From NCBI GenBank assembly GCA_016179745.1, contig JACPCP010000013.1, positions 1 to 35,343 on the forward strand: DNA of 35,343 nucleotides, given 5' to 3'. Every line of letters starts with the position of its first letter. The stretch's first letter is position 1. The stretch comes from Candidatus Omnitrophota bacterium (GTDB taxonomy: Bacteria > Omnitrophota > Omnitrophia > Omnitrophales > JACQLI01). The notes under the pieces were generated by a model. It ran no database searches and had not been told where the DNA came from. It saw nothing but the letters and a program-made list of their open reading frames with translations. Both the position numbers and the translations under genes were made by a program. Positions 32,206 to 33,063 of the stretch are shown here, piece by piece.

Positions 32206-32234
32206 AGGATACTCCGAACCCTCAATTTTCACAA
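32206..32234 (-). promoter_or_regulatory. Promoter of the ColD-like sugar operon
   Basis: On the minus strand TTGTGA (32234-32229), a 17-bp spacer and TATCCT (32211-32206). The predicted start is near 32199, about 35 nt before ATG 32165. It is back-to-back with the small-RNA promoter at 32275-32303. Confidence 0.45.
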
Positions 32235-32236
32235 CA

Positions 32237-32257
32237 GCATTTTGGCGGCATTTTGGC
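32237..32257. repeat. Two 10-bp direct repeats, 11-bp period (operator candidate)
   Basis: GCATTTTGGC at 32237-32246 and again at 32248-32257, one helical turn apart. They lie between the -35 boxes of two divergent promoters (sugar operon and small RNA). This spacing suits a dimeric regulator acting on both. Confidence 0.5.
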
Positions 32258-32274
32258 ATTCTTTGGTTCTCCAA

Positions 32275-32303
32275 TAGACACAGGTTATGGCTTATGGTAT
32301 ATT
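32275..32303 (+). promoter_or_regulatory. Extended -10 promoter for a small structured RNA
   Basis: TAGACA (32275-32280), a 17-bp spacer, TGG, then TATATT (32298-32303). The predicted start is G at 32310 or 32311. No protein gene follows on the plus strand; only the folded RNA element does. Confidence 0.6.
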
Positions 32304-32309
32304 TCGTTT

Positions 32310-32379
32310 GGAATTGCCCCCACTCCAAACTGTGGCGTTTATCGCCGCATTCCCGAAAGGGATAGGAGCGGGGGTTTTT
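32310..32379 (+). ncRNA. Predicted ~70-nt structured small RNA next to a DUF3800 gene
   Basis: P1 is a 10-bp terminal stem (32317-32326 with 32365-32374, one A.C mismatch, five G-C at the base). It encloses P2 (32331-32337 with 32343-32349, loop TTTAT) and P3 (TCCC 32351-32354 with GGGA 32359-32362, GAAA tetraloop), forming a three-way junction. P1 is followed at once by T5 (32375-32379), so the closing stem also serves as the intrinsic terminator. A promoter lies directly upstream. The plus strand is favoured by promoter, tetraloop and T-run, although P1 pairs slightly better on the minus strand and P2 slightly better on the plus. Candidate RNA motifs named DUF3800-I to -XI are, from memory, described beside DUF3800 genes; whether this belongs to one is unknown. 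Confidence 0.6.
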
Positions 32380-33007
32380 ATTTGGGCCACACCTGGACAT
32401 AGATTTGCCTGTGGGCAATCAATCGATGGTAGGTGTCGGCATCTTTCTTCTTCTGCATTTTCCGGTTAATCACCCCCGCAATATAATCCGCAAGCTGAAG
32501 CAGCCGGTTACTTGAAGAGCGCTGCATTTTTACCTTTCGGAGGTGTTTCCTGTCCGAAGTATTGATCTTCCGCCTGAGATAAGTCGCCAGCTGACGTTTG
32601 AAATCAAGGCTCCCGCTTTCATCGATTACAACAGTGGCGTTTTCGAGCCGCTCCTTCGCATTTTCAAACAGAAGGCTGCAAGTGTATTTATAGAACGATT
32701 GCTTGTGCCGGAAACCCTCCCCGTAAAGTTTGGCCGGATCCTTATTGATCACAATGCCGTAGAAGAAAAAGTCATAGGGAGCGGCGGCCTTCAAAAATGC
32801 TTTCCGGATGCGGTCTGAATTTCTCTTGAAGTGGAATTCTGAATTGGGTTCCCATCCTAATTCGTGGGCCAGCAGCTCCAGTCGTTTCTCGCAGGCCGTT
32901 GCTTCGCCAGGATCTTCAAAGATGACAAGCGCAATGGAGAAAAAGCGGCTGGATCCTTGAGAGAGTTTAAGGCCCGGGTCACCGGATTCATCAATGAAAA
33001 CCAGCAA
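32378..33007 (-). CDS. DUF3800 domain protein
   Basis: The protein is 209 aa. It opens at once with the family motif LVFIDESGDPG. A second acidic motif, VVIDESGS, lies in the middle, and QLADYIAGVINRK near the end. The spacing of Asp/Glu residues resembles RNase H-like nucleases, but biochemical function is unknown. The start chosen is TTG 33007-33005, five bases after a perfect AAGGAGG. The frame is open to 33079 (also TTG), but that part lies in repeat-like, Pro-rich sequence. Base composition is less GC-rich than the neighbours and it stands alone between sugar genes, suggesting horizontal transfer. Its stop overlaps the T-run of the small RNA on the other strand. Confidence 0.88.
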   Translation of the reverse strand: MLVFIDESGDPGLKLSQGSSRFFSIALVIFEDPGEATACEKRLELLAHELGWEPNSEFHFKRNSDRIRKAFLKAAAPYDFFFYGIVINKDPAKLYGEGFRHKQSFYKYTCSLLFENAKERLENATVVIDESGSLDFKRQLATYLRRKINTSDRKHLRKVKMQRSSSNRLLQLADYIAGVINRKMQKKKDADTYHRLIAHRQIYVQVWPK

Positions 33008-33063
33008 AACTCCCTCCTTGGGGTTAGGGGGGAGAGGCGGGGTGGCCGGCTTTTCTACAGGAC

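Follow-up and report, generated by a model that had tools for sequence, protein, structure and literature searches.

A DUF3800-IX RNA from Omnitrophota and its convergent RNase HII-like partner suggest a small mobile cassette with a candidate RNA-restrained nuclease

We analyzed a 35,343-nucleotide stretch of DNA from a Candidatus Omnitrophota bacterium (here called the window), in which a DUF3800 gene ends tail to tail with a small structured RNA gene. The locus is a new Omnitrophota member of the catalogued Rfam motif RF02968 (DUF3800-IX), whose function is unexplained. That gene and RNA form a protein-RNA module, as the first-pass annotation of this DNA had proposed, is well supported by covariation in the RNA, a fixed tail-to-tail geometry, correlated RNA and protein distances, and a conserved RNA promoter. 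As the best explanation, we propose a pair of the toxin-antitoxin or abortive-infection type, whose RNA would bind an RNase HII-like nuclease and keep it inactive. We give this reading, which we draw from comparative genomics and a predicted fold, a probability of a little under one half (about 0.48).

RF02968 was the sole Rfam match in the 35-kb window, at 32316..32379 on the plus strand (56.7 bits against a cut-off of 36.8, model positions 1-67, E=6.8e-10). The transcript probably extends over about 32310-32379 (plus strand). Its three helices are P1 (32316-32326/32365-32375), P2 (32331-32337/32343-32349), and P3 (32351-32354/32359-32362), which closes a GAAA loop at 32355-32358. The fold of 32310-32379 reached -36.1 kcal/mol compared to -21.1 +/- 2.7 for shuffled sequences (z=-5.6), and none of 200 shuffles was as good. 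With our own covariance model, the window RNA scored 79.5 bits, its sequence being part of the model seed. A sigma-70-type promoter precedes the RNA on the same strand (32275..32303), with TAGACA at 32275-32280, a 17-nt spacer, and an extended -10 (TGGTATATT) with TATATT at 32298-32303. This promoter matches at 10 of 12 positions with the extended TG. Taken alone, the match is near chance (0.7 expected in the region, 1 found), but it is backed by the conservation of its position in homologues. A run of five T residues directly after P1 (32375..32379, plus strand) is presumed to be an intrinsic terminator, which a generic terminator scan left unscored because its stem is branched. The run overlaps the convergent stop codon (32378-32380), so the end of the gene and the tail of the RNA have bases in common. 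The first-pass annotation had read the extended -10 promoter, a three-way-junction RNA with a GAAA tetraloop at 32310-32374, and the T5 terminator from the letters alone, and our analysis bears out all three. Genes for a DegT-type aminotransferase, a glycosyltransferase, and a sulfotransferase are among those flanking the locus.

The gene on the minus strand (32378..33007) encodes a DUF3800 protein of 209 amino acids (PF12686, 62 bits against a cut-off of 21). No other DUF3800 gene lies beside it, in agreement with the earlier description of a lone gene. The likely start is the TTG codon at 33007-33005, since the homologues all open with (M)LVFIDESG, and this position matches the end coordinate of the first-pass annotation. 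The stop codon occupies 32380-32378. The sequence AAGGAGG (33013..33019, minus strand) forms a Shine-Dalgarno site 5 nt before the TTG, although the core of this site is rare in the family (4 of 60 loci, compared to 8 of 60 in a control window). The nearest relative of the window protein (locus L007) is 76% identical to it, and the genome groups with Omnitrophota. Among close DUF3800 pairs with computable dS, dN/dS was 0.02 to 0.11. No close relative was found in a phage collection, and on plasmids only DUF3800 of ~25% identity. The genome of the window also carries a second, distant DUF3800 gene (L003; contig 21, 273-896, minus strand) directly after an HsdM-like gene, and neither our model nor Rfam found an RNA alongside it.

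The DUF3800 protein is predicted to have an RNase HII-like fold. An AlphaFold2 model (pLDDT 92.8, pTM 0.90) was used for a Foldseek search of the PDB, and RNase HII or RNase H3 took ranks 1 to 5, with probability 1.00 and TM scores of 0.45 to 0.59. Only the fold search succeeded; a sequence search against solved structures gave no match for the protein, and Pfam gave PF12686 with no match to an RNase HII profile. The DUF3800 domain has been termed an RNase H fold with catalytic rearrangement (PMC10910872). In an alignment of 68 proteins, F3, I4, D5, E6, S7, G8, G11, F70, K88, D128, L168, Q170, and D173 were invariant and E56 was present in at least 90%, with numbering from the L after the start. 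The invariance of FIDESG is partly a selection effect, since this motif belonged to the homologue search pattern; D128 and D173 lie outside the pattern. We consider D5, E6, D128, and D173 a putative metal-binding set. Like RNase HII and HIII, the protein has, in its predicted fold, a consecutive D-E pair opening the first strand and two further invariant aspartates. However, identity to those enzymes is about 12-15% over the fold, and DUF3800 adds the invariant K88 and the near-invariant E56.

With a full-model score above threshold and an adjacent PF12686 protein, the window locus is the same as RF02968 in sequence, structure, and DUF3800 association, and is a member of it. The first-pass annotation had mentioned reports of DUF3800-associated RNA motifs, and RF02968 is indeed one. 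The DUF3800-IX motif reportedly belongs to the 224 candidate RNAs that came out of the comparative survey by Weinberg et al. in 2017. What is new beyond the RF02968 record is the Omnitrophota copy, the edges of the cassette, the predicted protein fold, and the finding of constrained solo RNAs, meaning RNAs that stand without an intact protein gene.

A genome scan and a viral scan, in which a few viral entries duplicate genome entries, provided 91 protein loci from Patescibacteria, Omnitrophota, Elusimicrobiota, Verrucomicrobiota, Acidobacteriota, Chloroflexota, Bacteroidota, Alphaproteobacteria, and other groups. Our covariance model, seeded with 16 members, placed a convergent RNA directly 3' of the gene in 81 of the 91, and Rfam added four (two RF02968 and two RF02967, DUF3800-VII). 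Leaving out one locus cut by a contig end (L053), 85 of 90 judgeable loci had a model-supported tail-to-tail RNA. The other five had a similar unclassified inverted repeat, seen by eye only, and none of the 90 was a clear case of a protein without an RNA. Across 80 RNA sequences, 20 of 22 base pairs showed changes on both sides. Covariation was 0.603, compared to 0.190 for shuffled alignments and at most 0.137 for slid structures, in an alignment fitted to the structure, which favors the score somewhat. The first-pass annotation had named the lack of covarying pairs, or of a conserved element beside homologues, as grounds for giving up the proposal; we found both the covariation and the element. 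Junction bases, P2, and P3 were conserved among the homologous RNAs. RNA and protein distances correlated at r=0.51 (null maximum, 0.16), for which shared inheritance alone would suffice. In the protein tree, Omnitrophota appeared twice, at separate, supported positions between other phyla, which suggests transfer.

The obligate pairing, the distance correlation, and the conserved junction bases would also fit an RNA that the nuclease needs as a cofactor or sensor, within a ribonucleoprotein defense enzyme, and that is not its inhibitor. The restriction-modification and prophage neighborhoods described below would suit such an enzyme, as would the occurrence of other DUF3800 proteins as accessory nucleases in type V and VI CRISPR loci (PMC10910872, PMC12669027), a point that also counts against a toxin. 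We nevertheless consider this RNA-dependent effector unlikely, since a pure cofactor should decay after the enzyme is lost, whereas the solo RNAs stay constrained.

Some loci departed from the simple pair. In one genome (G340, locus L144), a single DUF3800 gene lies between two same-strand DUF3800-IX RNAs (1501-1573 and 2277-2349), and two other loci (L139 and L133) have an extra RNA close to an intact unit. RNAs of the Rfam families RF02964 (DUF3800-V) and RF02967 (DUF3800-VII) lie near DUF3800 matches of other subgroups, at L223 1118-1213(+), L095 6781-6863(-), and L096 6771-6856(-). Their position beside other DUF3800 subgroups suggests one common design.

While inspecting the edges of the unit, we found that conservation sets in at the ATG on one side and dies away at the RNA promoter on the other, so that the unit comprises gene, RNA, and RNA promoter. 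Over 60 loci, every column before the ATG stayed at or below 0.16 bits, compared to nearly 2 bits for the ATG and for most of the FIDESG codon positions. The protein gene is thus without a conserved upstream signal. On the RNA side, 70 homologous loci had the -10 and the -35 at conserved positions, 18 and 41 nt upstream of the RNA 5' end, respectively. The mean best promoter score was 9.4 of 12 compared to 7.6 in shuffled sequence, and a score of at least 9 was reached by 76% compared to 17%. These data bear on whether the RNA merely terminates the DUF3800 gene or regulates it as an antisense RNA, as might be supposed at the window locus from its overlap with the stop codon and its T5 end. The RNA has its own conserved promoter, however, and in several loci (L021, L066, and L146) a terminator-like hairpin distinct from the RNA lies between it and the stop codon. 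We rejected a plain terminator or antisense role as very improbable, given the conserved junction, P2, and P3 bases and the internal sequence kept in constrained solo RNAs.

Immediate neighbors of the units were mostly unrelated genes, and restriction-modification was the only strongly repeated class (among 114 neighbor proteins, N6_Mtase in 5 and HsdM_N in 4). Some units lie in viral contigs or prophage settings, and three of alphaproteobacterial type, read by eye, follow integrase-like genes (L067, L071, and L090). In two loci (L052 and L056), the unit sits between uppS and cdsA. In the other loci of the same family, no DUF3800 gene was found beside UppS, and in several of them uppS is shortly followed by a cdsA-like start, a comparison that supports insertion of a bare cassette. 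For the window itself, the DegT neighbor has distant relatives in the order, but the two best of these gave no syntenic empty site, so the empty-site test rests on L052 and L056. A Sphingobium locus (L080) was dropped because it adjoins a tRNA-like stretch. Taken together, the gene arrangements suggest that gene and RNA make up a small mobile cassette of two parts, a protein plus an RNA with its own promoter.

Sporadic spread across phyla and the one empty site would also fit a selfish mobile or homing element, in which DUF3800 moves the cassette, the RNA belongs to the mobility machinery, and solo RNAs are non-autonomous copies. Internally deleted copies (L005 and L197) and an RNA-only insertion inside a type ISP gene (L145) are of the kind that such an element would leave. 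On the other side, genomes usually carry one or two diverged copies, inspection around the units revealed no terminal repeats or target duplications, no transposase was seen, and the predicted fold is RNase HII-like, not transposase-like. We therefore doubt that the cassette is such an element.

At the type ISP locus (L145, 1-3072; genome G341, from the phylum of L011), the DUF3800-IX RNA and a second RNA-like element, about 300 bp together, split the gene. The left part of the interrupted protein aligns to residues 125-641 and the right part to residues 638-1055 of the intact enzyme, so that the split falls near residue 640 and costs almost no coding sequence. The second element is three-way-junction-like and follows the DUF3800-IX RNA on the same strand in two genomes, at L145 1310-1380(+) and at L138 70-135(+), with the common sequence TGATnTTCGGC...GCCG.GC...CGCAAG...CTAGT. 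The fold of the L145 copy gave z=-5.1, while that of the L138 copy was unremarkable (z=-1.0), and neither matched Rfam up to E=5. A pattern scan for this element, which stands beside two solo RNAs, gave a single match, which lies in a coding region and looks like chance.

RNA-first searches covered 1,251 genomes, made up of 285 from Omnitrophota and 380, 248, and 338 from the phyla of L011, L029, and L044. The RNA was present in 4, 15, 17, and 7 of these, respectively. Of the 49 RNA loci recovered, 26 had an intact protein gene, 6 a degraded one, and 16 none, and 1 was cut at a contig end; 22 of the 49 therefore had no intact protein. One degraded gene kept both ends but had its middle deleted (L005), one was reduced to its last 18 codons (L136), and one was frameshifted (L128). 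Two further RNAs with DUF3800 remnants lie 5.4 kb apart on contig 120 of genome G879 (L193 and L197), in a neighborhood of type III restriction-modification genes that also has a DUF1016-like gene.

In four Elusimicrobiota (L181, L182, L185, and L186), a solo RNA follows the same ResIII helicase gene. Just 6 of its 65 columns vary, compared to 241 of 482 third codon positions (Fisher p=6e-11), 19 of 50 intergenic positions (p=4e-4), and 63 of 129 flanking positions (p=1e-8); these p-values are approximate, since the four sequences share a tree and the sites are not fully independent. The changes fell mostly in loops, the P3 edge, or the tail, with one near the end of P1. Two of the four genomes (G949 and G937) carry DUF3800 genes elsewhere. 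No DUF3800 gene was found in the other two (G849 and G815), and no PF12686 match in five more solo-RNA genomes (G942, G958, G798, G741, and G438), all with the reservation that drafts may miss genes. The constraint was measured in one lineage, and the RNA could have gained a new role there.

Solo RNAs adjoin genes for ResIII helicase, DUF1016/YhcG with HsdS (L184), type III restriction-modification (L193 and L197), an N6-methylase (L192), and type ISP restriction-modification. Such neighbors could mean that the RNA is separately functional, with DUF3800 as a processing or turnover enzyme, or that the RNA has been recruited by the neighboring helicase or restriction-modification proteins. We judge this improbable, since the neighbors vary from case to case and most RNA loci retain DUF3800 or its remnants.

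The reading in which the RNA restrains the nuclease is favored because the protein was not seen without the RNA, the RNA is often found alone, and the solo RNA is still constrained. The asymmetry of loss is weak evidence by itself, since a 630-nt gene is a larger target for neutral decay than a 65-nt RNA and breaks first. Given a target ratio of 6:1 to 10:1, the 22:0 asymmetry has a p of about 0.03-0.12, and we rejected it as sole proof of a toxin because the size difference makes it too weak. The constraint on solo RNAs is the stronger point, as a pure cofactor should decay without its enzyme, and an antidote RNA guarding against incoming copies would explain it. Anti-addiction explains lone protein antitoxins in the same way. 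There is also precedent in AbiF/RCd22, where a structured RNA binds a toxic protein directly and so neutralizes it, both in cis and in trans (PMC12373285). Against a toxin, a DUF3800 gene of unstated subtype was scored essential in Legionella (PMC7811196).

As we envision the restrained nuclease, the RNA would be made constitutively from its own promoter and fold as a three-way junction, and the folded RNA would bind the nuclease directly and hold it inactive. The nuclease gene, having no conserved promoter or ribosome site, would be weakly expressed from whatever sits upstream. Loss or depletion of the RNA, for example through phage takeover or loss of the cassette, may free the nuclease, whose targets would then be RNA or duplexes that contain RNA. 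A cell without the nuclease could still retain the RNA, which would shield it from copies that arrive later. The parts of this model that we infer are binding, inhibition, toxicity, and trigger.

The proposed pair resembles AbiF/RCd22 and the type III toxin-antitoxin systems (ToxIN and CptIN) in joining a ribonuclease-like protein to a structured RNA in prophage or defense settings. Direct action of the RNA on the protein has been shown in those systems, whereas for DUF3800-IX we infer it. Their RNA is upstream, cotranscribed, and repeated, while the DUF3800-IX RNA is single, downstream, and convergent, with its own promoter. In addition, the DUF3800 protein is predicted to be RNase HII-like, not ToxN- or HEPN-like, and Pfam gives DUF3800 only, not a ToxN/AbiQ-type toxin. 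OMEGA systems (TnpB and IscB) are similar in another way, as they too are mobile and sporadic and have a conserved RNA at the 3' end of a gene for an RNase H-fold nuclease. OMEGA RNA lies on the same strand as the nuclease gene and takes its guide from flanking DNA. In contrast, the DUF3800-IX RNA is encoded on the strand opposite its gene, reaches as far as the gene's stop codon, and shows no guide segment. By inspection, both ends of the RNA lie in helix P1, followed by the T tail or the end of the gene. We rejected an RNA-guided nuclease, since no variable guide segment stands beside the conserved core and the 3' end of the RNA runs into the stop codon on the other strand. Among the roles that the first-pass annotation had guessed at, RNA guiding is not supported. 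An RNA-inhibited nuclease, toxin-antitoxin, or defense role is favored by the predicted fold, the constrained solo RNAs, and the prophage and restriction-modification settings.

DUF3800-associated RNAs are catalogued bacterial RNAs without known function, and solo RNAs under constraint offer natural experiments for telling an RNA that blocks its protein from one that serves it. More tentatively, the cassettes may represent a distinct toxin-antitoxin or anti-phage class, in which an RNase HII-type nuclease is held in check by a single convergent three-way-junction RNA. Time and again, this RNA would have been retained without its protein for anti-addiction or immunity, frequently next to genes for restriction-modification. 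Further families of DUF3800 RNA might then be variants of the same system. If the nuclease is restrained by its RNA as we propose, a group of orphan RNA motifs would turn out to be controllers of a nuclease family that occurs in prophages and in phyla that have received little study.
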